Part shown: piece after piece, positions 3,726-59,987 of the stretch
How positions within the stretch are numbered: position 1 is the first letter of the stretch
Layout of the letters: each line of letters opens with the position of its first letter
Origin: Geopsychrobacter electrodiphilus DSM 16401
GTDB taxonomy: Bacteria > Desulfobacterota > Desulfuromonadia > Desulfuromonadales > Geopsychrobacteraceae
Direction of reading: 5' to 3'
NCBI RefSeq assembly: GCF_000384395.1
Contig: NZ_ARWE01000001.1
Span: 434,001 to 498,000, forward strand
Length of the DNA stretch: 64,000 nucleotides
Made by a program: the position numbers and the translations under genes
Notes under the pieces: generated by a model
What the model was told of the DNA's origin: nothing
Seen by the model: only the letters and a program-made list of their open reading frames with translations
Databases searched by the model: none

Positions 3726-4040
3726 AAATATTTGTCCTTTCAGAAAAGATTTATCAGAGCTACGGCATCTTTCATCTTACCCCTGATTGCAATCTAAAAG
3801 GCAGTCCTGGAAGGGTTTTGATGTAAATCGACACGAGGCAGGCAGTGCAGTGGTTGAATAAAACCGGACACCAATTGAGGTGGAGTGACGACATCACAAA
3901 GGTTTGGTTTCAAGGCCGGTGGGTATACCTGGGTTGTGTATAATCTTTGCGCGCGTCATGTCATCAGATAAAGCTGGCCGGGAATAGTTGGCCACTTCAA
4001 GCCAGGCTTAAATAAGGTATGGGGAGATTATGAGATTTTT
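3726..4040. other. Divergent intergenic region, with a four-codon upstream ORF
   Basis: This region separates the minus-strand GST from the plus-strand NapH-like gene and should hold both promoters. A TATAAT at 3939-3944 is a possible -10 box for the plus-strand gene, but no good -35 lies 16-18 bases upstream. Just before the gene, GGGGAG (4021-4026) precedes ATG AGA TTT TTA TGA (4030-4044), a tiny frame whose TGA overlaps the ATG at 4041. The ribosome site is about 14 bases from the main ATG, so initiation may be coupled to the mini-frame. Confidence 0.4.
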
Positions 4041-42511: not shown

Positions 42512-43264
42512 TCAACGTTTGCCGAGCAGTCTCAATAAACCATCCAGATAAGTATAGGGGTGGGGCGGACAGCCAGGGATATAGAGATCGACCGGCAGCA
42601 GATCACCGATTCCGTTGTTTACTTCTTTGAGTCCCTGAAAAGGTCCGCCAGCGATGGCACAGGCGCCGGCAGCGATCACTAATTTAGGTTCGGGGATGGC
42701 GGCGTAGGTATCGAGCAGGGCGCTCTGCATGTTTTTGGTCAACGGGCCGGTCACCATCATACCATCGGCATGGCGTGGTGAAGCGACGAACTGAATACCG
42801 AAGCGGCCCAGATCATAGCCGATGGTCCCCAGCACGTTGATATCAGCCTCGCAGGCGCCGCAACCACCGGCCGACACCTGGCGCAATTTGAGTGAGCGGC
42901 CGAAGAGTTTGAGCATCCGTTTGTTCAATTGTTCGGCCAGGCGAAAGCCCTTGTCGGTAAACAGCAGGTCATCTCGCTGGTTCACACTCAGCCGGTAATC
43001 ACGCGAAAAACACATGGCTCCCTGTTCAACCGCCGGGCAATCGGCGCAGAAAAGGCAGCGCCCCAGGTCGACCTGGATTTCCCCGGGATCTTGCTTTAAC
43101 GCCTCGAAGGGGCAACTCTTGCAAGCCGCGTCGATTTGGGCGGTGCTCAAATTGGCGGTTATCTTGGGTAACCCCCGAAAACGTTCCGGCATGATCGGTT
43201 CCTCTTTCGGAAATTTACCGGTCCGGTGCCCCTGGCGCAGTCTTTCACGAATAATACCCAACAT
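42512..43264 (-). CDS. ehrS: Ehr complex A small subunit (NuoB/HycG-like) with N-terminal ferredoxin segment
   Basis: A 250-residue protein. An N-terminal iron-sulfur segment has C48, C51, C70, C73, C76 and C85 (CKSCP, then CLFCADCP), enough for at least one [4Fe-4S] cluster. The NuoB/NiFe-small-subunit domain follows, with C135 and C138 (GGCGAC), C202 and C232 (PGCPP), the ligands of the proximal N2-type cluster. It would carry electrons to the large subunit at the membrane arm junction. It is the last gene of Ehr module A, 11 bases after ehrL, with AAGGAG before its ATG. The symbol follows the ehr naming I recall from Geobacter sulfurreducens. Confidence 0.85.
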   Translation of the reverse strand: MLGIIRERLRQGHRTGKFPKEEPIMPERFRGLPKITANLSTAQIDAACKSCPFEALKQDPGEIQVDLGRCLFCADCPAVEQGAMCFSRDYRLSVNQRDDLLFTDKGFRLAEQLNKRMLKLFGRSLKLRQVSAGGCGACEADINVLGTIGYDLGRFGIQFVASPRHADGMMVTGPLTKNMQSALLDTYAAIPEPKLVIAAGACAIAGGPFQGLKEVNNGIGDLLPVDLYIPGCPPHPYTYLDGLLRLLGKR

Positions 43265-43275
43265 AGAAAAACTCC

Positions 43276-44796: not shown

Positions 44797-46217
44797 GGGT
44801 GCACCTCCAGTAGGTCGGCCGCCTGTTGCAGCGCGTGTTGCAAGGGGGCGGGGATGTAAACCCCGATCAGCAGAATCAACAGGATCAAGATCAGCGGTGC
44901 AATGTAGAGCATAAAACTATCCTTAAACTCCGGGGTTTTGTGCTCCGGTTCACCCTGAGTTGCCGCCAGTACGGTGGTCCCCATGCCGATAAACACGGTC
45001 GCCAGGAAGATCAGCATCACCAGACCGATGATCATGTGGCCGCTGCTGAAGACCCCGCGCAGGATGGTAAATTCACTCATAAAGGGCCCGAAGGGTGGCG
45101 ACCCGGTAATGGCGAGAAATCCGGCCAGAAAAATTGGTCCGGAAATCGGCAAGGCTTTAAGCGCGCCACGCACTTCAGAGAGGCGTTTACTGGCGAAGGC
45201 CCGTTGGATATTGCCCGCTGCCAGAAACAGACCCCCTTTGGTCAGGGCATTGTTGATCAGATGCAGCATGGCGCCGAAGGTGGCGATACCGCCAATGCCG
45301 ACACCGATGGCTAACAGACCCATATGTTCCACCGAAGAGTAGGCCAGCATCCGCTTGATATCAGGCTGGCGAATCATGAAGATCGAGGCCACCAGCAGCG
45401 AGAGCAGGCCCATCCCGAGCAACGCCTGACGGGCCATATCCCCTTCACCGGCGGCGGTCATCAGTTGAACACCACGCAGAATCGCAAGAAAAGCGACGCT
45501 GGTCAGACCACCGGCGAGCAGGGCGCCGACCAGGCCCGGAGCTTCGCCGTAGGCATCAGGCTTCCAGCTGTGCAGGGGTGCAAGTCCCATCTTGGTGCCA
45601 AACCCGACCAGCAGAAAGACGAACCCGGCGTGCAGCCAGGGCTTGCTGAGGGTGGTGGCGACCGTAAGCAGGGTGTCGAATTGCAGACTGACCGGCGCAC
45701 CGCCACCCAAGGCGGCATAGGCGATGAACAAGATGCCGAGCATCGCCAGGGCGATCCCGACTGAGCAGATCAATAGATATTTCCAGGTTGCTTCAATCGA
45801 AAGCCGACTACGATTGTAATAGATCAACGGCGCACTGGAGATGGTCGTCGCTTCAACCGCCAGCCACATGACGCCCATGTGCCGTGCGACGACCGCCAGG
45901 GTCATGGCGCTGAGGAAGACCAGCAAGCAGGGGACCATGACTTTGTTCCCGCGATCACGGCGCAGATTCAGATACCCCACCGCGTACACGCCACAGGCGA
46001 AGAACAGCAGACTGGTCACCAGCAGCACCAGCCTCGACAGGGCGTCCAGTCCGATCCAACTGCTTTCGAGCGGGAAACGGCCGAGGCAGAGGAGCACCGA
46101 CAGCAGCAGATGCAGGCCGCTGCTGAGTGGCAGCAGCCAGGAACGGGCCTGGTACCAGGGGATCGCCAGGCTGATAGCCGCTGCAATAAGAGGAAAGATA
46201 ATCAGAACTACGAGCAT
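44793..46217 (-). CDS. ehrD: Ehr complex A antiporter-like membrane subunit (HyfF/NuoN-like)
   Basis: A 474-residue protein with about 13-14 hydrophobic segments, related to Mrp-antiporter subunits of complex I and hydrogenase 4. Features include a glutamate in a membrane helix (MWLAVEATTISSAPLIYYN near residue 120), the lysine-bearing VGFGTKMGLAPLHSWKPDAYGEAP near residue 205, and IKRMLAYSSVEHMGLLAIGVGIGG near residue 289. These charged membrane residues form the proton path in the family. It lies between ehrC (4 bases) and ehrL (overlap of 4 bases), so it is co-translated. Confidence 0.87.
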   Translation of the reverse strand: MLVVLIIFPLIAAAISLAIPWYQARSWLLPLSSGLHLLLSVLLCLGRFPLESSWIGLDALSRLVLLVTSLLFFACGVYAVGYLNLRRDRGNKVMVPCLLVFLSAMTLAVVARHMGVMWLAVEATTISSAPLIYYNRSRLSIEATWKYLLICSVGIALAMLGILFIAYAALGGGAPVSLQFDTLLTVATTLSKPWLHAGFVFLLVGFGTKMGLAPLHSWKPDAYGEAPGLVGALLAGGLTSVAFLAILRGVQLMTAAGEGDMARQALLGMGLLSLLVASIFMIRQPDIKRMLAYSSVEHMGLLAIGVGIGGIATFGAMLHLINNALTKGGLFLAAGNIQRAFASKRLSEVRGALKALPISGPIFLAGFLAITGSPPFGPFMSEFTILRGVFSSGHMIIGLVMLIFLATVFIGMGTTVLAATQGEPEHKTPEFKDSFMLYIAPLILILLILLIGVYIPAPLQHALQQAADLLEVHP

Positions 46218-46221
46218 CGTA

Positions 46222-46860
46222 TTATTCCTTCAGGGCGGAGAGACGTTCCGTATCGAGCGAGGAAAATTCACGGTTGATCTGGTTGAGCACAATTCCCATG
46301 ACGAAGACGCCGACGAGTAAGTCGAGCAACACCCCGCCTTCGACCATCAGGGGCAGGGCTTCACTTAGCAGGACACCGATAATAAAAATCCCGTTCTCGA
46401 GCATCAAATAGCCCAGCACCTGGGTGATGGCTTTGCGCCGTGTGATCAAAAGCAAAAAACCGGCAAACATGGTGGCCAGAGCGACCGGGACGTAGAGCCC
46501 GTCGTGGTGTTCAGCGACCAACGGCAGAAAATCTGCAAACAAAAAAGCGCCAGCCGTGGTCAGGGCGCCCAGGATCAAGGTTGGGACAAAGCCGATGATC
46601 GGTTCGACCTCGCGGCGGATACGGACTTCGCGGACGGCGCGCAGCAGCAGCCAGGGGATGAGAATTCCTTTGAAACAAAAAGCTCCGGCCGACAGCAGGA
46701 TGGAGTGAAAACTGAGCCCGTGGGTTAAAAGCGGCAGCAGGGCCAATAATGCGCCCTGCAGCGCGACGATCCGGATACAGGCGACGAGTCGAGAGCTGCC
46801 GAGGGTAAAGAAATTAATCAGAATCACCGTCAGCAACAGGAGGTTTGTGAATTCCATCAT
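46222..46860 (-). CDS. ehrC: Ehr complex A HyfE-like (NuoK-containing) membrane subunit
   Basis: A 212-residue protein with about six hydrophobic segments. The second half (ITRRKAITQVLGYLMLENGIFIIGVLL, residues ~141-167) corresponds to NuoK-type helices carrying a conserved glutamate. The sequence matches HyfE of hydrogenase 4 in length and layout. Two ATGs (46860 and 46857) lie together, with GGAGAAG upstream. It would contribute part of the membrane-arm proton channel. Confidence 0.83.
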   Translation of the reverse strand: MMEFTNLLLLTVILINFFTLGSSRLVACIRIVALQGALLALLPLLTHGLSFHSILLSAGAFCFKGILIPWLLLRAVREVRIRREVEPIIGFVPTLILGALTTAGAFLFADFLPLVAEHHDGLYVPVALATMFAGFLLLITRRKAITQVLGYLMLENGIFIIGVLLSEALPLMVEGGVLLDLLVGVFVMGIVLNQINREFSSLDTERLSALKE

Positions 46861-46912
46861 CGGTTCTTCTCCGCCAGTATAGATATTCTGATGTTAGCGT
46901 TTTGAGAGCGTT

Positions 46913-47827
46913 TCATCGCAGCACCAACACCAGGGCGAAGATCGATAACAGCGAGGTTCCGATCAACATCTGCGGGATACGCGGTAAACGCAGGCGCGCC
47001 ATGAACGATTCGACTACCCCGATCAGTACTGCAATCCCGGCCAGTCCGGCGAGAAAAATCAGGGCGTCAAGCGCCCACCAACCGGTTTGCCAGGGGAGTG
47101 CCAGGCGCACCAACAGGGCCCCTAAAACCATCATTTTGAGCGAGGCGCCGTAAAGAATCATGCCGAGGGCCGGGCCACTGTGATCGAGCACCATCACCTC
47201 ATGAACCATGGTGAGTTCCAGGTGGGTGTTGGGATCATCGAACGGAATGCGTGAATTCTCGACCAGCATAACCACAAAGAGGCACACCAGAATCAACCCA
47301 AGTGAGGCGCCAGCCGGACTGCGCCAGGCTGCCAGCAGATGGGAGCCGAACAGGGTGTTGAGCGAAAGGCCATCGGAGATCCGGGCCAGGACCAGCAGCG
47401 CAAAAAGCACCGTCGGTTCAGCCAGACAGGAGAAAGTCACTTCACGCACCGCCCCCATCCCTTCGAAACTCGAACCGGTATCGAGCGCTGCGCTGGCGGT
47501 AAAGAAGCGTGCGAGGCCGAACAGGTAAACGAACAAAATCAGATCACCTTCAAAGCTGACCGGGGCCTGCAGCGCCCCAAAAGGTATCAGCAGCGAAGCC
47601 AGGAGCGGAACCACCAGGCCGACCACCGGACCGGTCAGGAAAACCCAGGTGGTAGTGCGACTGAAAACAAATCCCTTACGCCATAGTCGGGCGAGATCGT
47701 AGTAAAGCTGCAGCACCGGGGCACCGATACGGCCACCGAATATGGCTTTGGTCTTGGTGATAATCCCTGGCAACAGCGGGGCGAAGAGGAGCAAAAGAAC
47801 GAGATGCAGAACCAGCTTGCCGATCAC
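46913..47827 (-). CDS. ehrB: Ehr complex A NuoH/HyfC-like membrane subunit
   Basis: A 304-residue protein with about eight hydrophobic segments. The family signature NSRIPFDDPNTHLELTMVHEV (about residues 205-224) is intact, with the acidic residues that link the iron-sulfur arm to the membrane arm. Further NuoH-like features are LQLYYDLARLWRKGFVFSR near residue 39 and GMGAVREVTFSCLAEP near residue 122. The start is GTG at 47827 with GGAG upstream, 13 bases after ehrA-2. Subunits of this type hold the quinone-like cavity in complex I; whether a quinone binds here is unknown. Confidence 0.88.
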   Translation of the reverse strand: MIGKLVLHLVLLLLFAPLLPGIITKTKAIFGGRIGAPVLQLYYDLARLWRKGFVFSRTTTWVFLTGPVVGLVVPLLASLLIPFGALQAPVSFEGDLILFVYLFGLARFFTASAALDTGSSFEGMGAVREVTFSCLAEPTVLFALLVLARISDGLSLNTLFGSHLLAAWRSPAGASLGLILVCLFVVMLVENSRIPFDDPNTHLELTMVHEVMVLDHSGPALGMILYGASLKMMVLGALLVRLALPWQTGWWALDALIFLAGLAGIAVLIGVVESFMARLRLPRIPQMLIGTSLLSIFALVLVLR

Positions 47828-47840
47828 GATGGTTCTCCTT

Positions 47841-49808
47841 TCACAGCACGAATAAGGCGAGGAGCGCGATAACGGTCAGGGCGACATAAAGCAGGTAAGA
47901 GGCTATGCGTCCGTTTTGAATCAGGGCCCTTAGTTTGCGACAGAACCAGGCAATGCCTTGGCCCCCCGGGAAAAGAATACGGTCCAGAACTGCGTCGGGG
48001 GTGTGACTTTCAAAGCCGGACGCCGCAGCAAACAGGCCGGTGACCTTGCCGCCGTGACGTTCGCTCAAAAGGCCGAAATTAAACAGCTGCACGAGCATGT
48101 CAGCAAAAGAGCTGGCCGTATATTGCATGCGTGCCGTGGGAAATTGATAGCCGCAACCCCAGGTGCCGACATTGTGTGGCGCTGTGCGGCTGCGGCGCTT
48201 GAGCCAGAGGGCCAGGGCGCCGAGCAGAGCCACCAAAAGCCAGCCGATGAGACCGATGCGGCCGAGGGGCGCCAGGTTGCTCCCCAGAACTGTGCTCTCG
48301 GCGCTTCCGCTCCATTCGACAACGGCGGCGCGCAGCAGTGGAACCAGGGTGGTCGGGAGCAGCCCGATCCAGGCACAGGCGACCAACAGCAGTGCCATGG
48401 GTGCGAGCATACTGCCTGGGGCTTCATGCGCCTGGGCTGCGGCTGTGCTGCGTGGTTCACCGAGAAAGGTGATGCCGAACACCTTGACAAAGCAAGCGAG
48501 CGCTAATGCGCCGATTAGCGCCAAGGCCGGGGCTGCCAGGACAGCCATGCCCAGGGCCGAGGCGGGGTGCCTCAAGGGTTGGAAGGAGCCGAGATAGATC
48601 AGCCATTCACTGATAAATCCGTTGAATGGGGGGAGTCCACAGATCGCTACGGCCGCACCCAGAAATAAGGTCCCGGTCCAGGGTTGTGACTTGAGCAGTC
48701 CGCCATAACTGTCGATATCGCGGCTGCCGACCGCATGGATCACCGAGCCGGCACTCAAAAACAGCAGGGACTTAAACAGCCCGTGGTTGGCGACGTGGAG
48801 CAGACAACCGGCCAGACCAAGGGCCACCAGTGCCGGGACATGGTAGCTGCGACCGAGCAGGGCCAGCCCCAGACCGAGGGAAATAATGCCGATATTTTCG
48901 ACGCTGTGGTAGGCGAGCAGTCGCTTGATGTCATGCTGAGCCAACGCCAGGGCAACACCCATGATCCCCGAAATGATCCCGAGCAGCAGCATGGTCCAGC
49001 CCCACCAGGGCGGAATCTCGACAAAGAAGGAGGTAAGCCGCACCAAACCATAGATACCGGTTTTGATCATGACACCGGAGAGGATCGCCGAAGCATGGCT
49101 CGGTGCAGCGGCGTGGGCACCGGGCAGCCAGATGTGCAGCGGCATTATCCCGGCCTTCATGCCGAACCCGAACAAACCGAGCAGAAACATCAGACCAGCG
49201 CTTGCGGCGGTCAGGGTTCCGGCGGCGGGGAACATCAGGGATCCTGATGCTTGATCGAGCAGGGCGAAGAGGGCGAAGAGGGCCAGAGTGCCACTGTGGG
49301 TGGCGATCAGATAGATAAATCCGGCGCGGCGGACATCCTCTTTGTGATCTTCGGTGGTGATCAGAAAATAGCCGGCCAGAGCCATCACTTCCCAGCCCAT
49401 CAGAAACAGCACGCCGTTGCGGGACGACAGGAGCAGAATCATCGATCCGCTGAGCAGGCCATAAAAGAGCCGCAGTTTACGGCCGTTTGCCGGATTTTTA
49501 CTCTGGGGCCAGTAGCTCAGACCATAAACGGCGCCGGTTGCGACAACCAGAAAGAGCGGCAGCAGAAAGGTGGCAGTGATTGCGTCGAGTCGCAGAGCCA
49601 AGGCCCCGCCTGGAATGGTCCAAGGCAGCTCCAGGCGCATTTCGTGGCCCGAGACCAGGAGCAGGCCGACGGCAATCACGCCACTGACACAGCCGACCAG
49701 GCTCATCAGGCAGGCCAGCCGTTCCCCGCCGGTCCCCTGTCGAGAACAGAAGAGTCCGGGCACACCGGCCAACGAAGTTAGTAAGATCGCCCCTATAAGC
49801 CAGATCAA
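47841..49808 (-). CDS. ehrA-2: Ehr complex A NuoL/HyfB-like ion-pumping subunit, second copy
   Basis: A 655-residue antiporter-like protein. I place the start at TTG 49808: GGAGGAGG lies 6 bases upstream, it is 1 base after the previous stop, and the upstream in-frame residues are unlike the family. Key membrane motifs are FLMGWEVMALAGYFLITTED (residue ~120), FGMKAGIMPLHIWLPGAHAAAP (residue ~205), and [17 protein letters not shown] (residue ~290). The C-terminus keeps the HyfB-type segment with ARMQYTASSFADML. It is adjacent to a related gene upstream; the two probably occupy different places in the membrane arm. Confidence 0.87.
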   Translation of the reverse strand: MIWLIGAILLTSLAGVPGLFCSRQGTGGERLACLMSLVGCVSGVIAVGLLLVSGHEMRLELPWTIPGGALALRLDAITATFLLPLFLVVATGAVYGLSYWPQSKNPANGRKLRLFYGLLSGSMILLLSSRNGVLFLMGWEVMALAGYFLITTEDHKEDVRRAGFIYLIATHSGTLALFALFALLDQASGSLMFPAAGTLTAASAGLMFLLGLFGFGMKAGIMPLHIWLPGAHAAAPSHASAILSGVMIKTGIYGLVRLTSFFVEIPPWWGWTMLLLGIISGIMGVALALAQHDIKRLLAYHSVENIGIISLGLGLALLGRSYHVPALVALGLAGCLLHVANHGLFKSLLFLSAGSVIHAVGSRDIDSYGGLLKSQPWTGTLFLGAAVAICGLPPFNGFISEWLIYLGSFQPLRHPASALGMAVLAAPALALIGALALACFVKVFGITFLGEPRSTAAAQAHEAPGSMLAPMALLLVACAWIGLLPTTLVPLLRAAVVEWSGSAESTVLGSNLAPLGRIGLIGWLLVALLGALALWLKRRSRTAPHNVGTWGCGYQFPTARMQYTASSFADMLVQLFNFGLLSERHGGKVTGLFAAASGFESHTPDAVLDRILFPGGQGIAWFCRKLRALIQNGRIASYLLYVALTVIALLALFVL

Positions 49809-49809
49809 A

Positions 49810-51801
49810 TCATCCTCCTCCCTGTCCGCCGGCCCATAGACTCCAGGCCATAAGCACTGCGCTCGCGATGAAAATATAAACCAGGTAGATCGACAACTTC
49901 CCTTGTTGCAGCCAGCGTAGTCTCTGACAACGGTCGGCAAGGGCAACGAAAAGAGGGTTTAGTATGCGGATCAAGACGGGATCTGGGGAGGTCTGCGACA
50001 GGTGGCCTTCCTCCGGGAAAACCCCGCTGACATTCTTGACGTGTAGCTCAGGGCGCATGATTTTAGGAAGCAGGTGCCAGGCCGCAAGTTCGGAAAATCC
50101 TTCGCCGGTATACGCCATGCGCGGCGTGGGGAAGCGGAAAGCGCAGGCCCAGGTGGCCGCCTGTGCCTGTGGGCGCAAGTTTCTCAGTAAAACAAGAACT
50201 CCGGTGAAAACTCCCAGTCCGAGCAACAGCAGCAGTCCCCAGTGTCCCAGCGGAGCAACCGCCAGGGCGAGCTCAGGCCCGACCGTCACACCTGATACTT
50301 GTGCTAACGCTGGCGTCAGTAAGCGCAAGGCTCCCTGAGGATAGAGGCCGATCGTCAAACAGCCCGCAAGTAATGCCGCCATGGCGAGCAGCATCCGTGG
50401 CGCCGCCTCATGGGCATGGGCCGCCGCCGCGGTGCGCGGTTCCCCGAGCAGACAAATGCCGATCAGGCGCGAAAATGTCACCAGAGCCAGCGCACCCACC
50501 AGACCGAGCAGGCCGAAGAGCAAAAGTGGCATGAGAGCAGCAAAGCCCCCCAATGCGGAGCCCGCTTTGGCCAAACCAATATAAATCAGCCATTCACTGA
50601 CCAGGCCGTTGAGGGGTGGCAAGGCTCCGATGGCCAAACTGCCCCCGATCCACAAAAGTCCGGCCAGTGGCATGCGCTTGAGCAGGCCACCCATCATGTT
50701 CATGTCACGCGTGCCGGTGGCGTGCAGCAGGGTGCCGGCGCCGAGGAACATGACCCCTTTGAAAAGCGCATGATTCCACAGGTGGAGCATGCCTCCGGCA
50801 TAAGCAAAGAGCGCCAGAGTCGGATGTCCCTCGGCGGCGGCGACCAGACCAAAGCCCAAACCAAGGAACATGATGCCGATGTTTTCGACGGTTGAATAGG
50901 CCAGACAACGTTTGATGTCGCGCTGCTGCGCGGCCAGTGAAATCCCGTAGAGGGCACCGCCTGCTCCGAGCAGAGCCATCAGCCAGCCCCACCAGATCGG
51001 AGCGGGGGGGAGAAAACTGATAACCCGCAGAATGCCGTAGATACCGGTTTTGATTAATACCCCGGACATCAGGGCCGAAACATGGCTGGGGGCTGCCGGA
51101 TGAGCATTAGGCAACCAGATATGAATCGGAAAGAGTCCGGCCTTGACGCCGAAACCGAACAGCGCCAGCAGATAGAGCAGCGAGGCCATGCCGAGGGGGA
51201 GTTGCGCCAAGGGTCCGAAGTCGCTGAAGTCAAGGCTGGGACAATAGCTGCCTGCCAGAATAAACATGGCGACCAGCAGCATCATGCCGAGGTGGGCGGC
51301 CAGCAGGTAGAGCCAGGCGGCCTTGCGCACCTCTTCCAGATGATGGTCCCAGGCAACCAGAAAGAAGGAGGAGATGGTCATGGCCTCCCAGGCGGCCAGA
51401 AAGAGCAGCGCATTGGCGGCGGTGGTCACCAGCAACATGGCGATGGCCATGATGTTGAAAAAGAACCAGTGCGGCGCCAGTGGCCGCTGCTGACCCTCGT
51501 GGGCCAGATAGGGCCCGGCATAGAGGGCACAACAGAGGGTAATGATAGAGATCGGCAGGACGAAAAAGGCCGCTAACGGATCGAGTCGCAGGGTGAAGGC
51601 GCCCCCGGGAACCGACCAGAGAGCGGAGTAGCTGAGCGCCTGCCCGCTGAGCAGAACCTGAAGTGCAATATAGCCTGAGATAAGGGTTGCGCTAACCGCC
51701 GAGAGGGTCCCGATCAGGGTCGCCAGCGATGATTTTCGCGCGGCGATGGAGAGCAAACTACCGACAAGTAAAATGAGTAAAGCCGTTATAAACAGGGTCA
51801 T
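49810..51801 (-). CDS. ehrA-1: Ehr complex A NuoL/HyfB-like ion-pumping subunit, first copy
   Basis: A 663-residue protein with about 15 hydrophobic segments. It has FLAAWEAMTISSFFLVAWDHH (residue ~128), FGVKAGLFPIHIWLPNAHPAAPSH (residue ~215), and RDIKRCLAYSTVENIGIMFLG (residue ~295), which contain the membrane glutamate and lysines of the proton path. The C-terminal segment (TPRMAYTGEGFSEL) parallels that of ehrA-2, so the two genes arose by duplication. It starts 156 bases after the regulator gene and heads module A; the ribosome site is weak. The next gene begins 1 base after its stop. Confidence 0.87.
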   Translation of the reverse strand: MTLFITALLILLVGSLLSIAARKSSLATLIGTLSAVSATLISGYIALQVLLSGQALSYSALWSVPGGAFTLRLDPLAAFFVLPISIITLCCALYAGPYLAHEGQQRPLAPHWFFFNIMAIAMLLVTTAANALLFLAAWEAMTISSFFLVAWDHHLEEVRKAAWLYLLAAHLGMMLLVAMFILAGSYCPSLDFSDFGPLAQLPLGMASLLYLLALFGFGVKAGLFPIHIWLPNAHPAAPSHVSALMSGVLIKTGIYGILRVISFLPPAPIWWGWLMALLGAGGALYGISLAAQQRDIKRCLAYSTVENIGIMFLGLGFGLVAAAEGHPTLALFAYAGGMLHLWNHALFKGVMFLGAGTLLHATGTRDMNMMGGLLKRMPLAGLLWIGGSLAIGALPPLNGLVSEWLIYIGLAKAGSALGGFAALMPLLLFGLLGLVGALALVTFSRLIGICLLGEPRTAAAAHAHEAAPRMLLAMAALLAGCLTIGLYPQGALRLLTPALAQVSGVTVGPELALAVAPLGHWGLLLLLGLGVFTGVLVLLRNLRPQAQAATWACAFRFPTPRMAYTGEGFSELAAWHLLPKIMRPELHVKNVSGVFPEEGHLSQTSPDPVLIRILNPLFVALADRCQRLRWLQQGKLSIYLVYIFIASAVLMAWSLWAGGQGGG

Positions 51802-51957: not shown

Positions 51958-52638
51958 TCAGTTCGTCTTGATGAAACTTTCAGCCTGGGTCAAGGCGGCA
52001 AAGATTTTTTCGCGGCTCCCTTCCTGCAGGAGAGTGTCGCGAAAGTCCGAATTGTGCAGCACAAAACTCAGGCGCGAGAGCAGGTGCAGGTGTGAGCGCA
52101 GATTCGGTGCGATAATCATAAAGAGGATCGAGACCGGTTGGCCATCGAGGGCGTGAAAATCGACCGGTTCTTCCAAAAAACAGAGTGTCACTGTCGGACG
52201 CAGGACATTCAACAGACCAGGACTGCGCGGGTGGGGTATGGCAATGCCGGAACCGGTGGCGGTTGGCGCGAGTTGTTCGCGGGTAATCAGCATCTGGGTC
52301 AGGTGACCCAGGTCGATATCTTCCGGCACCCGCAGGTGGCCCACCGCATCGGTCAAAACCTCTTCGCGGGTTTTACCTTCAACGCGGTAAAATACCCCGC
52401 CGGTTTCAAGAGCATCTGTCAGTGAGGGGAGCGGCTGGTCGTCGGCTTCGGGCTCTTCATAGGCGTCCCCCGCTACGCCTCTACGGCGTGCCGTTGCCCA
52501 CTCCAATAGTTCCGCCCGGTTGAAGCGGTAGCTTTCGTGGACCTTATAGGCGGGAACGATATCCTGCTTGATCCAGCGATAGATGGTCTTTTCCGAAACC
52601 GATAGCAGCCGCGCTGCATCTTTGACATTAAGGTTCAT
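51958..52638 (-). CDS. Regulator fusing an excisionase-type HTH to a PTS EIIA(Ntr)-like domain
   Basis: A 226-residue protein. Residues 1-52 form an excisionase/MerR-like DNA-binding domain (VKDAARLLSVSEKTIYRWIKQ, then RFNRAELLEWA). Residues ~80-222 form a fructose/nitrogen-type EIIA domain with the phospho-accepting histidine in SGIAIPHPRSPG near residue 147. Such a protein could read the phosphorylation state of a PtsP/NPr or fructose-type relay and act on DNA. It lies exactly between the two Ehr modules on the same strand, so it is the prime candidate regulator of one or both. A minus-strand promoter candidate precedes it. No other PTS gene is in the window. Confidence 0.82.
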   Translation of the reverse strand: MNLNVKDAARLLSVSEKTIYRWIKQDIVPAYKVHESYRFNRAELLEWATARRRGVAGDAYEEPEADDQPLPSLTDALETGGVFYRVEGKTREEVLTDAVGHLRVPEDIDLGHLTQMLITREQLAPTATGSGIAIPHPRSPGLLNVLRPTVTLCFLEEPVDFHALDGQPVSILFMIIAPNLRSHLHLLSRLSFVLHNSDFRDTLLQEGSREKIFAALTQAESFIKTN

Positions 52639-52767: not shown

Positions 52768-53277
52768 TCAACGTTCTTGCAAGAGTTCGAGGATTCCTTG
52801 TAAGAGTTGGAGCGGGGTGGGGGGGCAGCCCGGGATGACGGCATCGACCGGGAGGACGTTTTCAAGCGCCCCGCAGCTGGCGTAGGAAACGCCGAATTCT
52901 CCGCCGTTGGCTGCACATTCGCCCATGCCGACCACCAGTTTGGGTGCAGGAGTCGCTTCATAGGTGCGCAGGAGTGCGGCCTGCATATGACGCGAAACGG
53001 GACCGGTGATCAGCAGCAGATCTGCGTGGCGCGGTGAGGCGACAAAGTGGATGCCGAAGCGTTCGATATCGTAGAAACCGTTATTAACCGCATGCATCTC
53101 CAGTTCACAGCCGTTACAGCTGCCGGCATCAACCATGCGGATCGCTAGCGAACCCGCAAACTTGCGCGCAATCTCCTGTTGACAGGCGCTCCCCAGCTTT
53201 GCGACCCGCTGGTCTTCGGTTGGCAGGGGTTCGGTCAGCTGGCCGGTTTTGCGGATTTTATTGAAGATGCGGAACAT
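52768..53277 (-). CDS. Ehr complex B small subunit (NuoB/HyfI-like), no ferredoxin extension
   Basis: A 169-residue protein with the N2-type cluster cysteines C54, C57 (GSCNGCELE), C121 and C151 (PGCPP). The FGIHFVASPRHADLLLITG stretch is near-identical in layout to the small subunit of module A. Unlike module A, the first 50 residues contain no iron-sulfur motif, and no separate ferredoxin gene exists in module B. The electron donor would then have to dock directly or be encoded elsewhere. It is the last gene of module B; the regulator gene starts 129 bases downstream. Confidence 0.87.
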   Translation of the reverse strand: MFRIFNKIRKTGQLTEPLPTEDQRVAKLGSACQQEIARKFAGSLAIRMVDAGSCNGCELEMHAVNNGFYDIERFGIHFVASPRHADLLLITGPVSRHMQAALLRTYEATPAPKLVVGMGECAANGGEFGVSYASCGALENVLPVDAVIPGCPPTPLQLLQGILELLQER

Positions 53278-53292
53278 AACTCAAAATTCCCT

Positions 53293-54897
53293 CTATAGAT
53301 CGTGCCCTGAGTATGACCCATTGACCGATTTATTGCAGACCGGAAAGTCGGGCACGATGACATCGTCCATCATCTCTTCCAGCGCCAGCCAGTTGATGGC
53401 GCTGGGATCGCGGGGGGCGTAGCGCAGCACTGTTCCGTCGGCACCGAGTCTGACATAGGCCAGGGTTTCGCCGCGCCAGCCTTCGATCAGTCCCAGGCCC
53501 TGCGCCTCGCGGCCGGGAAGGGAGCAAACGGTCGCAAGCTCCCCGGCGGGAAGCTTGCGCAGTAGCTCTTCGATCAATCCTAGTGACACCAGAATTTCGT
53601 CACCACGGACCCGCACGCGGCGGGCGACGTCGCCTTCAATGTAGGCTGGAACTTCGACCTTTAAGCGGTCGTAGGGTGGATAGGGGGCGTCGCGGCGCAG
53701 ATCATACTGATGGTTACTGGCGCGGCCGACGTAGCCGAGGGCGCCGAGTCTTGCGGCTTTTGCAGGGGAGAGCAGCCCGGTGTCGCGCAGACGATCCTGC
53801 AAGGAGGGATATTCGAGCAGCAGTGGCATCAGCTCTACAATTTCGATGCGCAAGGTGCCGCAGGACATGAGCTGCAGTTGAACCTGTTCGGTGTTTAAAT
53901 CGCCGGCGACTCCGCCCGGCCGCAGATAATCCATCATCAGCCGGTGACCGAAGACATGGGCGTTGTCGCGCTGCCATAATTCCCGCAGGCGCGTCATCTG
54001 CACCTGGGCGAAGGCGAAGCCGACATCGTTGCAGACGGCGCCAATATCCCCCAGATGGTTGGCGATCCGTTCGCGTTCGCAGGCGATTGCTCTCAGCGCC
54101 AGAGCCCGCGCTGAGGGGGCGACCCCCAGCGCCTGTTCGACAGCCTGACAGGCCGCCCAGCTGTGGACGACTGTGCTATCGCCCGAGACCCGTCCCGCCA
54201 GGCGGATCAGCCCCGCCAGGTCACGGCCGACGGCGATCTTTTCTATTCCCTTATGCACATAACCCAGATGCTCTTCGAGACGCAGGATCCTCTCACCGAC
54301 CGCCTGAAAACGGAAATGGCCCGGTTCGATGATGCCAGCGTGAACGGGACCGACCGGGATTTCGTAGACTCCGGAGCCTTCGGTGGCAGCGAAGGGGTAA
54401 TCACAATCGGGCGGTGTTCGTTCGGTGGGGCGTCCGGCGCGCGGGAAATCGACGCGCAAGGGAAAGTCGCCTTCGCTCCAGGCTTGATGTCGCAGCCAGC
54501 GCCGGGGATCGGGATGCGCCAGCAACTGCACGCCCAGCATGTCCTGCAGAACCCGCTCCTGTCGTGAAGCGCCTGCAAAAAAAGGCGTTTGAGCCGGGAG
54601 CTGGGGATCCTCTTCGCTCACCTGGGTCTGCAGCAGCAGCTGGCCATCACCGCCCACAAAGAGACTGAAAATCAGGATATTTGGCGGGCAATGTTCACCC
54701 CAGCAGGTTGAAAATCGCAGTTTTTCATCCCGCGCCAGTTCGGCGGCCTTCCCCCAGTCACAGCTGGAAATCTGCAAACTGAGACAGCCGGGGTGCAGGG
54801 CTTGAGACTCGGTGCTGGCGACTCCGATGGCGCGCAGTGCCGCGGCAAATTCACGGGTTGTCCCGCTGGGGATCTGGGGCGGCTGGCGTTTACTCAT
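53293..54897 (-). CDS. Ehr complex B large subunit (NuoCD/HycE-like) lacking Ni-Fe ligands
   Basis: A 534-residue protein from the ATG at 54897, which overlaps the preceding stop as ATGA. The N-terminal third is a degenerate NuoC-like domain; the rest is NuoD-like (VGPVHAGIIEPGHFRFQAVGE). At the first Ni-Fe position it reads LAGRVSGDSTVVHS, without the CxxC; at the C-terminus it reads DFPVCNKSVNGSYSGHDL, with only one cysteine. No Ni-Fe centre can form. Compared with module A, the second C-terminal cysteine is also lost, leaving only the NKSxNxSYxGxDL frame, which must have another purpose. Confidence 0.88.
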   Translation of the reverse strand: MSKRQPPQIPSGTTREFAAALRAIGVASTESQALHPGCLSLQISSCDWGKAAELARDEKLRFSTCWGEHCPPNILIFSLFVGGDGQLLLQTQVSEEDPQLPAQTPFFAGASRQERVLQDMLGVQLLAHPDPRRWLRHQAWSEGDFPLRVDFPRAGRPTERTPPDCDYPFAATEGSGVYEIPVGPVHAGIIEPGHFRFQAVGERILRLEEHLGYVHKGIEKIAVGRDLAGLIRLAGRVSGDSTVVHSWAACQAVEQALGVAPSARALALRAIACERERIANHLGDIGAVCNDVGFAFAQVQMTRLRELWQRDNAHVFGHRLMMDYLRPGGVAGDLNTEQVQLQLMSCGTLRIEIVELMPLLLEYPSLQDRLRDTGLLSPAKAARLGALGYVGRASNHQYDLRRDAPYPPYDRLKVEVPAYIEGDVARRVRVRGDEILVSLGLIEELLRKLPAGELATVCSLPGREAQGLGLIEGWRGETLAYVRLGADGTVLRYAPRDPSAINWLALEEMMDDVIVPDFPVCNKSVNGSYSGHDL

Positions 54898-56360
54898 AAT
54901 ACCCCCCGGCCGACCACCATGATTGTCGCCTGATTCAGCCAGTCGACGAGCACCCCGGGGATCGAGATGCCGAGTAATAAGACCAGCAGCAGGTGGAGAA
55001 TGACGGGCCACATATTGGCCGGCACCGCGACCTGACCGGCCGGTGGCTCACCGAAAACCATTGGTTGAATGTGGCGAAACAGCCCGGTGAAGGCGATAAC
55101 CAGGCCACTGAGCAGCGGGATGACCAGCCAGGGCCAGCTCTTGATGGTGGCGGTAAAGAGCAAAAACTCGCTGGTAAAAACGCCGAAGGGCGGAAACCCG
55201 GCGATCGCGACGGTTGCGATCAGCAAGCACCAGCCCACCACCGGCTGGGTCTTGATCAGGCCACGGATCCCGGCGATGCTCTGGGTTCCGGCCACATGGG
55301 CGGCATGACCGACGGTGACAAAGATAGAGGATTTGGTCAGGGAATGCACAATCATGTGCAGCAGCGCGCCGAAGGTCGCGAGCGGGCCGCCAATGCCAAA
55401 GGCAAAGGTCATCAGCCCCATATGTTCAATCGATGAATAGGCGAACATCCGTTTGACGTCGCGCTGGTGGTGCAGCAACAGACTGGCGACGCTAAAGGAG
55501 AGCAGTCCGAACCCCATCATCATCTGCCCGGCCAGATGGTTTCCCAGGGCCGGGTCGACAATCATCTTGAAACGCACCACCGCGTAGAGCGCGATATTGA
55601 GCAGCAGCCCGGAGAGGATCGCCGACATCGGGGTCGGCCCTTCGGAGTGGGCGTCGGGCAGCCAGTTGTGCAGCGGGACCAGTCCGACCTTGGTGCCGTA
55701 ACCGACCAGTAAAAAGGCGAAGGCGATGGTCAGCACCGCCGGTTCCAGCTGGCCGGCATGTTCATGGAGCACACTCCAGAGCAGGGTATCATCGCTGCCG
55801 GGCAGAATCCGTTCGGCGGCAAAGTAGATCAGCACCGTACCGAATAACGCCTGCGCGATGCCGACGCCGCAGAGGATAAAATATTTCCAGCCTGCCTCGA
55901 TCGATTCGGGGGTGCGATAGAGGGAGACCAGCAGCACCGTGGCCAGGGTCGCGCCCTCGATGGAGACCCAGAGGATGCCGAGGTTGTTGGTCGAAAGGGC
56001 CAGCAGCATGGTGAACAGAAAACCCTGATACATGGCGTGGTAAAGACGCATGCGGCCATCATCGACCCGGCCGATCTTGACCTCGTGCGCCATGTAGGGG
56101 CCCGAGAAGATCGAGGTCGTCAGGCCGACAAAGGCATTGAGCAGGATCAGATAGACGTTGAAGGCATCGATATAGAACAGCTTGCCGGGGCTGAGCATCG
56201 GACCCTGTTCAAATATATTGAACGCCAGTTGCAGGGCGGCGATAAAGGTGGCCATACACAACAGGGTATTGATCCACCCGGCCCGCGGCCAATGGCCGAC
56301 CAGCGCCAGCAGCAGGGTCCCGATCAGTGGCAACAGCAGGCAGAGATAGAGCGCATTCAT
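54894..56360 (-). CDS. Ehr complex B antiporter-like membrane subunit (HyfF/NuoN-like)
   Basis: A 488-residue protein with about 14 hydrophobic segments, paralogous to the HyfF-like subunit of module A. Charged membrane motifs are ILWVSIEGATLATVLLVSLYR (residue ~129), VGYGTKVGLVPLHNWLPDAHSEGPTP (residue ~222), and DVKRMFAYSSIEHMGLMTFAFG (residue ~307). These keep the glutamate and lysine used for ion movement in the family. It overlaps its neighbours by 4 bases on both sides (ATGA junctions), which indicates tight co-translation. Confidence 0.87.
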   Translation of the reverse strand: MNALYLCLLLPLIGTLLLALVGHWPRAGWINTLLCMATFIAALQLAFNIFEQGPMLSPGKLFYIDAFNVYLILLNAFVGLTTSIFSGPYMAHEVKIGRVDDGRMRLYHAMYQGFLFTMLLALSTNNLGILWVSIEGATLATVLLVSLYRTPESIEAGWKYFILCGVGIAQALFGTVLIYFAAERILPGSDDTLLWSVLHEHAGQLEPAVLTIAFAFLLVGYGTKVGLVPLHNWLPDAHSEGPTPMSAILSGLLLNIALYAVVRFKMIVDPALGNHLAGQMMMGFGLLSFSVASLLLHHQRDVKRMFAYSSIEHMGLMTFAFGIGGPLATFGALLHMIVHSLTKSSIFVTVGHAAHVAGTQSIAGIRGLIKTQPVVGWCLLIATVAIAGFPPFGVFTSEFLLFTATIKSWPWLVIPLLSGLVIAFTGLFRHIQPMVFGEPPAGQVAVPANMWPVILHLLLVLLLGISIPGVLVDWLNQATIMVVGRGVL

Positions 56361-57034
56361 TTATCCACCTCTGTTAGGCGGTTCAGGTGATCAACGTTGA
56401 GCGAACCGATGCCGGAACGGATCTGAAAAAAGAAGATGCCGAAGAGGATCGCGGCGACCAGCACATCGAACGCCACCCCCAACTCCACCACCATCGGCAT
56501 GCCGTAGGTTGAAACGACGGCGGCAAAAAAGAGTCCGTTCTCCATCGACATGAAGCCGATCACCTGGGCGACCGCTTTACGCCGGGTGATGATCATCAGC
56601 ATGCCGATGAGGATGATCGCCAACGAAATGGCAATGGTGTTGCGCGTCGAGAGCAGTGACAGCTCGCGAATGGGGAGTACCACATAGTAGCTGAACAGGG
56701 TCAGGGCCCCTGCGCCGATCATAATCAGCGAGGCGCCACCGACCGTCTCAACCTCGCGCCGGATATCGAGGCGTACGACCAAACGTCGCAATTGCCAGGG
56801 GATGAAGAACACCTTGAGCGCGAGGGTCAGTCCGGCCGAAATGAACAGGTGATGACGTCCCGAACTTGTCGCCATCAGGACTGTGGCGGCAAACAGCAGC
56901 GCGCCCTGCCAGGCAAAGGTGTGAATCAGGCTGACCATGCGCGTCTGTGCTAACAGCAGAAACGAGGTGAACAGAATCAGCGCCGCCAGGGTCAGGATCA
57001 GTTGCTCGCTCAGACTTAAGGCTTCGATTCCCAT
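56357..57034 (-). CDS. Ehr complex B HyfE-like membrane subunit
   Basis: A 225-residue protein from the ATG at 57034; the longer frame to 57310 lies inside the upstream gene and is not used. It has about six hydrophobic segments, with ITRRKAVAQVIGFMSMENGLFFAAVV near residues 153-178 forming the NuoK-like part with a membrane glutamate. It parallels the HyfE-like subunit of module A in size and order. It begins 5 bases after the HyfC-like gene. Confidence 0.83.
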   Translation of the reverse strand: MGIEALSLSEQLILTLAALILFTSFLLLAQTRMVSLIHTFAWQGALLFAATVLMATSSGRHHLFISAGLTLALKVFFIPWQLRRLVVRLDIRREVETVGGASLIMIGAGALTLFSYYVVLPIRELSLLSTRNTIAISLAIILIGMLMIITRRKAVAQVIGFMSMENGLFFAAVVSTYGMPMVVELGVAFDVLVAAILFGIFFFQIRSGIGSLNVDHLNRLTEVDK

Positions 57035-57039
57035 ACGCG

Positions 57040-57984
57040 TCAGCGGACCTCCAGGATGATGTGGCTCAACATGCCGAGCAGCGAGAGGATGAAGGCCAGC
57101 CCAAGGAGTTGTGGCACGCGGAACAGGCGCATTTTGGCCAACCCGGTTTCGGCTATGGCCAGGGCCAGACCGAGGAGCAGGAGTTTGACCGTCAGTATGA
57201 GCGTGGCGAAGAGGAGAGCGGCCGGGGCAAAGGTGAGCGCGACGCCCCAGGGGAGGAACAGATTTACCAGCAGCACGGCGTAGAGCATCAGCTTGAGCAT
57301 GGCGCCCCATTCCATCAGCGCCAGATGCCGACCGCAGTACTCAAGGATCATCGCCTCGTGAATCATGGTCAATTCCAGATGGGTGGCCGGGTTATCGACC
57401 GGGATGCGTCCGGTCTCGGCCAGCGCCACCAGCACCAGCCCCATGGCGGCGAAGATGAAGGAGGGGTAGAGGTGAAACGGGCGCTGCAGCAGGGTGCTGA
57501 TCATGCTCGAAAGATTGGTGCTCGACACACTCATCGCCAGAGTGAAAACCGCCAGCAGCATGGCGGGTTCGGCCAGGGATGAAATTGTCACTTCGCGCGA
57601 GGATCCCATCCCCCCGAACGCGGTGCCGATGTCCATCCCGGCCAGGGAGAGGAAGAAACGGCCGAGAGCAAAAAGTCCCACCAGAACAATCACATCGGCC
57701 AACGCCGAGGTTGGCAGGCCGACCGCTAGCAGCGGCACCACCGAACAGGCAACCGCCGTGACACTGAAAACAATGTAGGGGGCAATGCGGAAAATCGGCG
57801 AGGCATTCCGGGCGAGAACGATCTCTTTGCCGAAGAGTTTATTTAGGTCGCGGTACGGCTGCCAGGGTGGCGCGCCGCGGCGGTTTTGCAATTTACACTT
57901 GACCCATTTGACCCAACCGCTGAACAGCGGTGCGGCGGCGATGAAGACCCCGGTCTGGACGATTGCCAGCAACCAGCCGTTCAT
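57040..57984 (-). CDS. Ehr complex B NuoH/HyfC-like membrane subunit
   Basis: A 314-residue protein from the ATG at 57984, overlapping the upstream stop by 4 bases. It has about eight hydrophobic segments and the intact family motif TGRIPVDNPATHLELTMIHEAM (about residues 209-228). GMGSSREVTISSLAEP near residue 130 and RDLNKLFGKEIVLAR near residue 44 match the module A paralogue. It links the iron-sulfur arm to the antiporter subunits. Confidence 0.88.
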   Translation of the reverse strand: MNGWLLAIVQTGVFIAAAPLFSGWVKWVKCKLQNRRGAPPWQPYRDLNKLFGKEIVLARNASPIFRIAPYIVFSVTAVACSVVPLLAVGLPTSALADVIVLVGLFALGRFFLSLAGMDIGTAFGGMGSSREVTISSLAEPAMLLAVFTLAMSVSSTNLSSMISTLLQRPFHLYPSFIFAAMGLVLVALAETGRIPVDNPATHLELTMIHEAMILEYCGRHLALMEWGAMLKLMLYAVLLVNLFLPWGVALTFAPAALLFATLILTVKLLLLGLALAIAETGLAKMRLFRVPQLLGLAFILSLLGMLSHIILEVR

Positions 57985-59987
57985 ACCAGCACCCAGAGGA
58001 TAAAGATCAGGGTGAAGAAGGAGTACGCCAGATAGACGCGGATATTCCCCCCCTGGATCATGGCCGTGCGTTTGGCGGCGCTCAGTACCAGGCTGCCGAG
58101 GGGAAGATAGATTTTCTGCCAGGCCCAATCGCCGATCTGCAACAGATAGCGTTGCGGGTGCTTGCTCGTTGCCGCTACAAGCTGTTCTTTGATCGGCCAG
58201 ACGGGTCCGAAAATGCGCCGGATCGGCATGCTAAAGGCGGTTGCGGTGTATTGGGTGCGTGCGTTCAGGGTGCCGAAGCCACAGTCCCAGGCGGCGCCAC
58301 GCCGCATCGGCAGGCGCCGCCGCTGGGGGTGAAACCATAACCAGGCCAGCAGCCAGGCTAACAGGAGACCCAGCAGGACCATGGGCGCACCATAAGAGGC
58401 GGTTTCAGGCGCGACCGGGGTCAGCCACAGCCAGCCGTGGGCGCTTGCTTCGGGGAGCCCTTCACCGAGCAGACTCTGGGAAATGGAGGTCAGCGCGCCG
58501 ATGGTCCAGGTCGGCAGAACGCCAAACAGCAGGCAGCAGGCGGCCAGAATTATCTGGGCAAATTGCATTCCGAACGTGACTTCGTGGGCCTGCTCGGCAA
58601 CAGGGTTACGCGGCAAGCCGAGGAAGACCACGCCGAAAACCTTGACAAAACAGGCCGCCGCCAATGCACCGGTTAAGGCGAGAGCAGCCGCAGCCACCGG
58701 GATCAGGGAACCGAGCACTCCGCTTTCGAGCACTGAACCCTGCAGGGCGGCCTGAAAGGTCAACCATTCCGAGACAAAGCCGTTGAAGGGGGGCAGGGCC
58801 GAAATACTGATGCAGCCGATCAGAAAGCAGCTGGCGGTGACCGGCATGCGGCGAATCAAGCCGCCCATCTGCTCCATATCATGCTGACGGCTCTGCTGCA
58901 GAATGGCACCGGCACCGAGGAACAGCAGGCTTTTGAAGAGGGCATGGTTCAGACAATGATAGAGTGCCGCGACCAGGCCCAGCGCGGCCAGGGCCGGATG
59001 ACCGGTGCCAGCGAAGATCATCGAGAGCCCGAGCCCGATATAGATGATCCCGATGTTTTCAACGCTGTGATAAGCCAGCAGACGTTTGAGGTCGTGTTGC
59101 ATCAGCGCATAAAGTACCCCTAACAGCGCTGATGCGGCACCGATTATCAGGGCCAGTACCCCCCAGGTCCAGTGAATCTCACCCAAAAGATCATAGGTGA
59201 AACGGATAAAACCGTAGATCGCCACCTTGAGCATCACCCCGGACATCAGCGCCGAGATATGTGAGGGCGCCACCGGATGCGCCTGAGGCAACCAGACATG
59301 TAAAGGGACGATCCCCGCTTTCATGCCGAAACCGACAAAGGCCAGCAAGAAGGCGATGGTCTGCCAACCACTTGAGAGCTGTGCCGCAGCCATGGCCGTG
59401 AAACTGAAATCGGTGCCGAATCCGGCCAGGACCCCGTAACCGAGCAGGATACACAGGCCACCGACCTGAGCCATCAACAGATAGAGAAAGGCGGCACTGC
59501 GATTTTCGACTTTGTGATGCTGGTAGGAGACCAGAAAATAACTGGAAACAGACATCAACTCCCAGCTGAACATGAAGGAGAAGGCGTCTGCCGTCAGCAA
59601 TAACAAGAACATACTGGTGACAAACAGGCCACTAAAGATCGTCAGCGGCGCGAGAGGTTGTTCGGCGCTTTCGAATTCACGGGAATAGCCGGGTCCGTAG
59701 CAGGCAATAACGGCAGTGACCAGACCAACAATCACCAGGAAAAAACCGGCGAGTGGGTCGAGCTGGATTTGCGCATGCAGCCAGGGCAGCCCGACGGGAA
59801 GGGTTTCATGCAGGGGATGGGGGTGAAGGAGTGCCATCCCTCCTGCCACGAGTGCGCTTAATCCGGCCAGGCCAAGCAGAGTGAATGCCAGCAGCTTTGA
59901 CAACCGCGGCCAGTGTGCCAAAAGAGGAGGGATAAATGCCGAGAGCAGCGCAAAGGTGACAGCAATCTTGGCGATAAACAGTGGCAC
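57981..59987 (-). CDS. Ehr complex B NuoL/HyfB-like ion-pumping subunit
   Basis: A 668-residue protein with about 15 hydrophobic segments, starting at GTG 59987 with AGGGGGT about 9 bases upstream. Motifs are [21 protein letters not shown] (residue ~133), [24 protein letters not shown] (residue ~220), and [21 protein letters not shown] (residue ~300). It is the only subunit of this type in module B, whereas module A has two, so module B might move fewer ions per cycle. It is the first gene of the 17.5-kb minus-strand block and is divergent from rnhA; the shared promoter region is 59988-60162. Confidence 0.87.

Follow-up and report, generated by a model that had tools for sequence, protein, structure and literature searches.

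Energy-converting hydrogenase-related (Ehr, or Ech-related) complexes pair large and small subunits resembling those of group 4 [NiFe] hydrogenases, without the nickel ligands, with several Mrp-like antiporter subunits. Excerpts of published accounts of the family (PMC6349859; PMC7894505, which covers Geobacter proteomics and reports abundant Ehr proteins during growth on formate; PMC12342949; PMC10432482; PMC10284858) describe missing Ni/Fe ligands, a missing [NiFe] site or missing CxxC motifs, or refer to the proteins merely as Ech-related; these excerpts contain nothing on the C-terminal tail, the Asp-to-Asn change in the canopy or the retained proton relay described below. The motifs of group 4 [NiFe] enzymes are L1, C[GS][ILV]C...H, and L2, [DE][PL]Cx[AGST]Cx[DE][RL] (excerpt of PMC7886697). 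In E. coli HycE, according to excerpts of PMC9474812, Glu193 in the β1–β2 loop is the proton donor, His284, Glu437 and Arg395 form the proton path, and Arg478 and Asp529 constitute the canopy, Asp529 being called strictly conserved. Position 193 is the place of the quinone-site His in complex I (excerpts of PMC9474812 and PMC11228991), and an energy-coupling role is ascribed to an Asp among the last L2 residues, Asp379 of MbhL (excerpt of PMC11228991), which on our own motif alignment would be equivalent to HycE Asp536.

The window, the whole 64,000-nucleotide stretch of Geopsychrobacter electrodiphilus DSM 16401 DNA analysed here, contains two complete Hyf/Ehr-type gene sets, modules A and B, both on the minus strand (Table 1). 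Each encodes a group-4-related large subunit devoid of ligand cysteines together with Mrp/Hyf-type antiporter-like subunits in the same operon, which identifies the modules as Ehr. Both large subunits end in the NKSxNxSYxGxDL motif reported in the initial annotation, whose ranges are correct to 1–3 bases. Adjacent pairs of Ehr modules also occur outside the genus of the window (L036, L106, L132, L133, L333 and L334), the hosts being Geothermobacter, Piscinibacter, two relatives and two genomes from the phylum of a Nitrospirae genome. The gene for a helix-turn-helix plus PTS EIIA protein is likewise found beside or between Ehr modules in distant genomes (L036, L078, L083 and L084), and its product is possibly a regulator. 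A nuo operon (nuoA and a fused nuoBCD, in which NuoB has the CC motif) starts at 61421, ∼1.4 kb past module B.

Table 1. Positions of the Ehr modules, their genes and tails, and the intervening genes in the window
Feature	Position	Strand	Remark
Module A gene set	42512-49946	-	second HyfB-like gene extends to 51801
Module A small subunit	42512..43264	-	N-terminal ferredoxin-like domain
Module A large subunit, EhrL-like	43276..44796	-	
Module A large-subunit tail, DFPLCNKSFNLSYCGFDL + stop	43276..43332	-	tail 43279-43332; stop codon 43276-43278
Module A HyfF-like subunit	44793..46217	-	
Module A HyfE-like subunit	46222..46860	-	
Module A HyfC/NuoH-like subunit	46913..47827	-	
Module A HyfB-like antiporter subunit	47841..49946	-	start uncertain; overlaps next ORF
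Second HyfB-like antiporter subunit, between modules A and B	49810..51801	-	
Helix-turn-helix + PTS EIIA domain protein, between modules A and B	51958..52638	-	
Module B gene set	52768-59987	-	
Module B small subunit, NuoB/HycG-like	52768..53277	-	CNGC and two further Cys; without ferredoxin domain
Module B large subunit, EhrL-like, fused 30 kDa + 49 kDa domains	53293..54897	-	start 54897 inferred from ATGA overlap with upstream gene
Module B large-subunit tail, DFPVCNKSVNGSYSGHDL + stop; remodelled L2, former [NiFe] site	53293..53349	-	18 residues, 53296-53349; stop codon 53293-53295; aligned to E. coli HycE 520-537
Module B HyfF/NuoN-like antiporter subunit	54894..56360	-	ORF; aligned to E. 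coli HyfF
Module B HyfE-like membrane subunit	56357..57040	-	named by position and likeness; ORF to 57310, start uncertain
Module B HyfC/NuoH-like membrane subunit	57040..58128	-	start uncertain
Module B HyfB/NuoL-like antiporter subunit	57981..59987	-	ORF; aligned to E. coli HyfB and HycC

Register of the tail against HycE

Three alignments place the Ehr tail in one and the same register. In the phmmer alignment of the module B protein with E. coli HycE (7z0s_E), RVSGDSTVVH lies opposite RVCGICGFAH and SVNGSYSG opposite SLDPCYSC, while a MAFFT alignment of 107 Ehr sequences with HycE and HyfG of E. coli K-12 matches the tail to HycE 523–537 without gaps. The structure modelled for the module B core (353 residues, mean pLDDT 91.4, pTM 0.92) has HycE 7z0s_E as its closest match (Z 44.8, rmsd 1.7, 341 residues aligned), model residue 349 falling on HycE 533; with a pLDDT of ∼35 for the last residues, the model does not fix their side chains. 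As the three methods agree, the tail is the hydrogenase L2 segment itself rather than an added replacement. The proposal that the motif replaces the DPCxxC end of hydrogenases is therefore right for the L2 columns and wrong in so far as it implies a foreign tail, since the same segment persists with substituted residues; the D, P, a hydrophobic residue, S, Y and penultimate D of the Ehr tail are also present in HycE.

Column for column, DPC-Y-x-C-x-DR of HycE becomes N-x-S-Y-x-G-x-DL in Ehr. In HycE numbering Asp529 is changed to Asn, Cys531 to Ser, Cys534 to Gly and Arg537 to Leu followed by the stop codon, and Tyr532 and Asp536 are kept. The canopy Asp is thus an Asn, the terminal Ni ligand a Ser and the bridging ligand a Gly, and the chain stops at the final L2 residue. 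In L1, module B has Ser in place of both Cys241 and Cys244 and module A has Ala and Thr, and at 243 both have acquired an Asp. None of the four ligand positions therefore retains its Cys (module B reads S,S,S,G and module A reads A,T,S,G), and neither module matches the group 4 motifs, the L2 D/E of which is also replaced by N. The tail cysteines counted by the initial annotation, two in module A and one in module B, are literally there, but they are not leftover ligands as they align with the non-ligand positions Ile524 and Ser533 of HycE. An uncleaved C-terminus, which had been set against the processed tail of hydrogenases, is not special to Ehr: five group 4 hydrogenases from relatives (L033, L034, L115, L116 and L117) have DPCISCT(E/D)R as their very last residues, and the listed subunits of complex I likewise finish at this L2 end. 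The tails of modules A and B share 13 of 18 residues against a core identity of 36–37%, a likeness far beyond chance.

Conservation, selection and descent

The initial annotation had let the motif stand or fall with its conservation across Ehr homologues, and the tail proved near-invariant in 107 distinct complete Ehr sequences. These comprise 78 matches from a contig scan and 29 that were retrieved from the window genome and its relatives with queries that included the tail. The scan was seeded with the N-terminal peptides PVHAG[VI]IE and PGHFRFQ[CA], and because these were taken from an alignment without the tail its matches provide an unbiased test. It returned 80 loci, 78 with a pattern match, and 79 frames, one being cut by a contig end; L093 and L112, missed by the pattern, and L070, cut at a contig end, were left out of the 107. 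Among 335 windows of 18 residues the tail is the fourth most conserved, the three ahead of it all overlapping the seed region, and its mean entropy is 0.51 bits vs 1.64 bits for all core columns. The Phe, Pro, Asn, Lys, Ser, Tyr, Gly and penultimate Asp are each found in 107/107 sequences; slightly less strict are the second Asn and the final Leu (both 106/107) and the Ser at former Cys531 (104/107).

The full set, whose Ehr are bacterial, comprises 352 complete frames that reduce to 303 distinct cores: 241 of NKS type, 16 four-Cys hydrogenases (including HycE and HyfG) and 46 others, namely 33 with complex-I-type residues, nine Ni-less outliers and four hydrogenases broken by TGA codons. Because membership of the NKS class requires Asn525-x-Ser527 with Lys/Arg526, these columns cannot vary among the 241 cores, and the independent figure for Asn-Lys-Ser conservation is that of the 107-sequence set. 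No Ni-site-less sequence scoring above 285 bits lacks NKS or NRS, and no member of the NKS class falls below 331 bits. The chain ends at HycE column 537 in 241/241 NKS cores, which together hold five ligand cysteines, never two per protein. Canopy position 529 is Asn in 234 cores, Asp in 4 and Ser in 3; position 531 may also be Asn (13), Ala (3) or Cys (2), the Asn and Cys variants coming from relatives of a Paraburkholderia genome, and a final Met replaces Leu in 8. In two of these relatives (L305 and L306) the residue that replaces the terminal Ni ligand is itself a Cys, as in NKSFNLCYAGHDL, while many of the others have Asn there. The new Asp between the former L1 ligands occurs in 229/241 cores, while 11 have Thr, Val or Cys instead and still possess NKS/NRS. 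A salt bridge between this Asp and the tail Lys, standing in for the metal charge, was considered because both residues are invariant in the 107 sequences, but was weakened by the 11 cores lacking the Asp.

The motif does not extend to every Ni-site-less relative, as nine outlier sequences have other tails, for example DFPIIMASFGLSNAECDR and DYAINEASFGLTISGCAR. L187, L227, L228, L229, L314 and L324 are of the DFPIIMATFGLSNAECDR type and L221, L310 and L311 of the DYAINEASFGLTISGCAR type; those included in the tree (L187, L227, L228, L229 and L221) are placed next to the NKS clade. The nine outliers suggest that other Ni-site-less lineages solved the same metal-site loss differently. Across 50 loci of the window's phylum, among them 20 of the 24 matches of weaker rank and at least three that duplicate earlier sequences (L157, L158 and L160), 49 have NKS tails and one (L187) does not.

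Conservation of the motif in both paralogous families reflects strong purifying selection, as had been surmised. Of 22 non-overlapping pairs drawn from close relatives, 21 have a core dN/dS of 0.05–0.28 and one is saturated; the estimate is rough for three pairs with dS >1.4. In these cores, which had been chosen for NKS in the tail, the tail has accumulated 92.5 synonymous changes on 256 sites vs 7.5 nonsynonymous changes on 932. The Ehr large subunit is thus under purifying selection. In trees built without the last 20 columns the NKS group has a support of 100, showing that the tail marks a group. The A and B sides of this group, the A set being named after inspection of the tree, are supported at 100 and 100 without the tail and 100 and 99 with it; as two well-supported sides, modules A and B do not stem from a recent duplication. 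In the best trees the hydrogenases lie between the Ehr and complex I clades, and 0/200 bootstrap trees have the hydrogenase rows on one side, although a single metal-site loss shared with complex I is not rejected (AU p 0.0999). These data suggest that the metal-site losses in Ehr and complex I were separate; the hydrogenase sampling of the tree is small, at nine rows, two of which contain TGA codons that were read as Cys.

Ehr complexes are widespread. In the window's phylum, 52 of 247 sampled genomes (the window's own included) have a match at a threshold of 1e-75, one of them of the outlier type; in the phylum of a Nitrospirae genome, 98 of 148 have one at 1e-60, at least eight of these being true hydrogenases. 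The gene order hyfB-C-E-F-large-small is found in most of the 80 loci, several of which are cut by contig ends. The clearest recurring neighbour of B-type operons is a SulP-like permease cluster, present in 12 of the 80 loci (L041, L042, L046, L049, L050, L052, L056, L057, L059, L060, L062 and L064); in 10 of the 12 the gene is on the same strand and ≤0.5 kb upstream, and the four members scanned against Pfam are PF00916. Nine of the 12 records have methanotroph names. A second neighbour cluster occurs at nine loci, the one member scanned being DUF2490. As the Pfam scan of neighbours comprised five proteins, a recurring oxidoreductase partner is possible.

In four genomes of the window's phylum, group 4 hydrogenase large subunits (L239, L240, L242 and L246) have in-frame TGA codons at both L1 Cys positions (ERI-TGA-GI-TGA-GYIHS), a downstream frame with both L2 cysteines and, in 4/4, a hairpin CACAGTA..TACTGTG nine bases after the second TGA. 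This looks like a double-selenocysteine L1 motif; Rfam matches to E 5 include no selenocysteine element at these loci, and the case is not listed in excerpts of a selenoprotein review (PMC13188914).

Proton relay, membrane arm and electron input

The residues of the HycE proton relay are retained in the 241 NKS cores: Glu193 in 240 (one gap), His284 in 241, Glu437 in 240 and Arg478 in 240, with the coupling Asp536 in 241/241. Arg395 is Arg in 228 and Lys in 12. In addition to canopy position 529, canopy residue Ser283 is replaced by Asn in 235 cores and Pro477 by Trp in 199 and Phe in 29. The loss of the canopy Asp to Asn could mean that the Ehr reaction differs from that of hydrogenases or is absent. 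The quinone-site His and Tyr of the 49 kDa subunit are also absent, Ehr having Glu at the position of HycE Glu193 and Gly-Asp at L1, where, from our own alignment, we take the quinone Tyr of complex I to lie.

Most membrane-arm charges of HyfC, HyfB and HyfF are retained. In B-type HyfC the equivalents of HycD Glu130, Glu138, Glu189, Glu203 and Glu206 are Glu in 61/61 sequences and Arg108 is kept in 60/61, while Tyr102 is replaced by Gly or Ala. The equivalent of Glu199 is Ala in 44, Glu in 2 and Asp in 2 of the 61, and that of the E-channel residue Glu201 is His in 61/61 as well as in both window modules. Part of the E-channel is thus altered in the B type, which counts against the explanation favoured below; simultaneous mutation of Glu199, Glu201 and Glu203 lowered H2 output by 99% (work cited in an excerpt of PMC9474812). 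In HyfB the equivalents of HycC Glu135, Lys336 and Glu391, along with a Lys at HycC Leu208, are present in 60/60 sequences and Lys239 in 57/60. In HyfF, numbered as in the window protein, Glu135, Lys343 and Glu398 are found in 73/73 sequences and Lys224 in 72/73, the roles of these four residues being assumed by analogy.

The small subunits of both window modules contain CxxC (CGAC in A and CNGC in B) plus the GxC and GCPP cysteines, and not the adjacent CC of NuoB that is present in the neighbouring nuoBCD. CxxCE spacing is kept in 146 of 159 small-subunit matches; the other 13 are six complex I proteins with CC, three from the outlier family with CGAC, one that is part-masked but has CNGCE, two cut by the locus end and one frame from L133. 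The L133 frame (3458-3871, +), 138 residues long and on the strand opposite the Ehr genes, has no CxxC part and aligns with the module A small subunit over 69 residues at 62%; it is possibly a gene remnant. Judged by Cys spacing, with types assigned by best BLAST match, an N-terminal ferredoxin-like pattern precedes the cluster motif in 54/54 A-type and 0/92 B-type small subunits. By the same kind of pattern no ferredoxin subunit is evident in the module B operon, a further point against the favoured explanation, and within 2 kb of 58 loci with hyfB, large and small subunits a CxxCxxCxxxCP frame occurs only at L078, where it belongs to an opposite-strand neighbour, and L106, where it is the A-type small subunit.

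Proposed function and relation to known systems

With a probability of roughly 0.6, the tail is the rebuilt L2 half of the ancestral [NiFe] site, in what is now a metal-free redox pocket coupled to ion pumping. Such an enzyme would bind no metal and need no maturation protease step. The tail Asn, Ser, Tyr and Gly would line a polar cavity and Asn-Lys-Ser would close the helix leading into it. Within this cavity the [4Fe-4S] cluster of the small subunit would exchange electrons with a substrate, and in module A electrons would enter through the fused ferredoxin-like domain. Protons would reach the cavity via the relay equivalent to Glu193, His284, Glu437 and Arg478, and the tail Asp would pass the event through the β1–β2 loop to the E-channel and antiporter-like subunits, resulting in ion pumping. 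The likeliest job of Ehr is a redox-driven (or ion-driven) reaction on a substrate. More tentatively, and at odds clearly short of even, Ehr may form a functional class of its own within the complex I superfamily. In a metal-free pocket, made by exchanging the four Ni ligands for Ser/Thr/Ala/Gly and the canopy Asp for Asn, the single [4Fe-4S] cluster of the small subunit would then drive the proton-coupled reduction or oxidation of a substrate other than H2, polysulfide or a complex-I-type quinone, and ions would be pumped with it.

Other readings of the locus are less probable to differing degrees. The complex may be redox-silent, its catalytic half being a structural or regulatory plug and its antiporter-like subunits a pmf-driven ion transporter, perhaps under control of the HTH-EIIA protein. 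Loss of all Ni ligands and most canopy Asp residues is consistent with this minority view, which stays alive for module B mainly because the B type has no ferredoxin domain or frame; the conserved cluster motif and internal proton relay, neither of which a mere plug would need, argue against it, as does the ferredoxin-like pattern of the A-type small subunits. A new cofactor in the cavity, either some other metal or an organic group held by the new Asp, Ser, Asn and His, is rather improbable. The near-universal L1 Asp and the invariant Asn and Lys before L2 speak for such a site, but the Asp can be Thr, Val or Cys in proteins that keep NKS/NRS, position 531 varies and no maturation gene is found among the annotated genes of the two window modules.

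That Ehr is a quinone reductase akin to complex I, with one event having removed the metal from both, is unlikely. The fold is nearly as close to the 49 kDa subunit of complex I (Z 40–42) as to HycE, and the AU result tolerates a single loss; against this stand the hydrogenases lying between both clades in the best trees, the Arg and Glu of Ehr at positions that in complex I are mostly Lys and His (excerpt of PMC9474812), the lack of the L1 Asp-Tyr of the window's NuoD, and the CxxC, not CC, of the small subunit. The least credible alternative, to which we attach very little weight, is a decayed, non-functional hydrogenase under relaxed selection, a status assigned to Ehr of Geobacter sulfurreducens KN400 in an excerpt of PMC13194489. 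All four ligands are indeed lost in both modules, but the low dN/dS and the scarcity of nonsynonymous change in the tail contradict that view at the family level, and the same gene set recurs in loci titled proteobacteria, Nitrospirae and Deltaproteobacteria/Desulfobacterales; single strains could still have lost function. As the pocket ligands are gone while the relay, cluster motif and membrane charges are kept under purifying selection, Ehr is a relative of hydrogenase-3/4 that has lost the metal site but is being maintained, and not a decayed hydrogenase.

For annotation, the tail offers a sharp signature that separates Ehr from both hydrogenase and complex I. It also names the residues with which to test what a [NiFe] pocket does after metal loss, a matter closely tied to how complex I arose. 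Publications already cover the family and the absence of its ligands; what is added here, with no claim to priority, is the exact decoding of the tail. If the motif has been described before, the likeliest places are Marreiros 2013 and Coppi 2005.

Among known systems HycE and HyfG, of E. coli hydrogenase-3 and -4, are the closest, HycE also in solved structure. They share with Ehr the EPGHFR loop, Arg478, His284, Glu437, Tyr532 and Asp536, but keep CGIC, DPCYSC and a C-terminal extension that Ehr lacks. The 49 kDa subunit of complex I (NuoD/Nqo4) has, like Ehr, lost all four cysteines and ends at the same column. It retains the canopy Asp where Ehr mostly has Asn and, according to an excerpt of PMC9474812, mostly has Lys for Arg478 and His for Glu193, whereas Ehr keeps Arg and Glu; the L1 Asp-Tyr (as in the window's NuoD) and the CC of NuoB further distinguish complex I from Ehr. 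The MBS sulfane reductase (MbsL, 6u8y_L), a phmmer match, resembles Ehr in having a remodelled [NiFe] pocket by the proximal cluster. An excerpt of PMC7684303 describes MBS as keeping two cysteines, with a three-Cys cluster and a shortened motif; in contrast, Ehr keeps the CxxC spacing and the Ehr proteins of the window have no ligand cysteine, which sets them apart from MBS.
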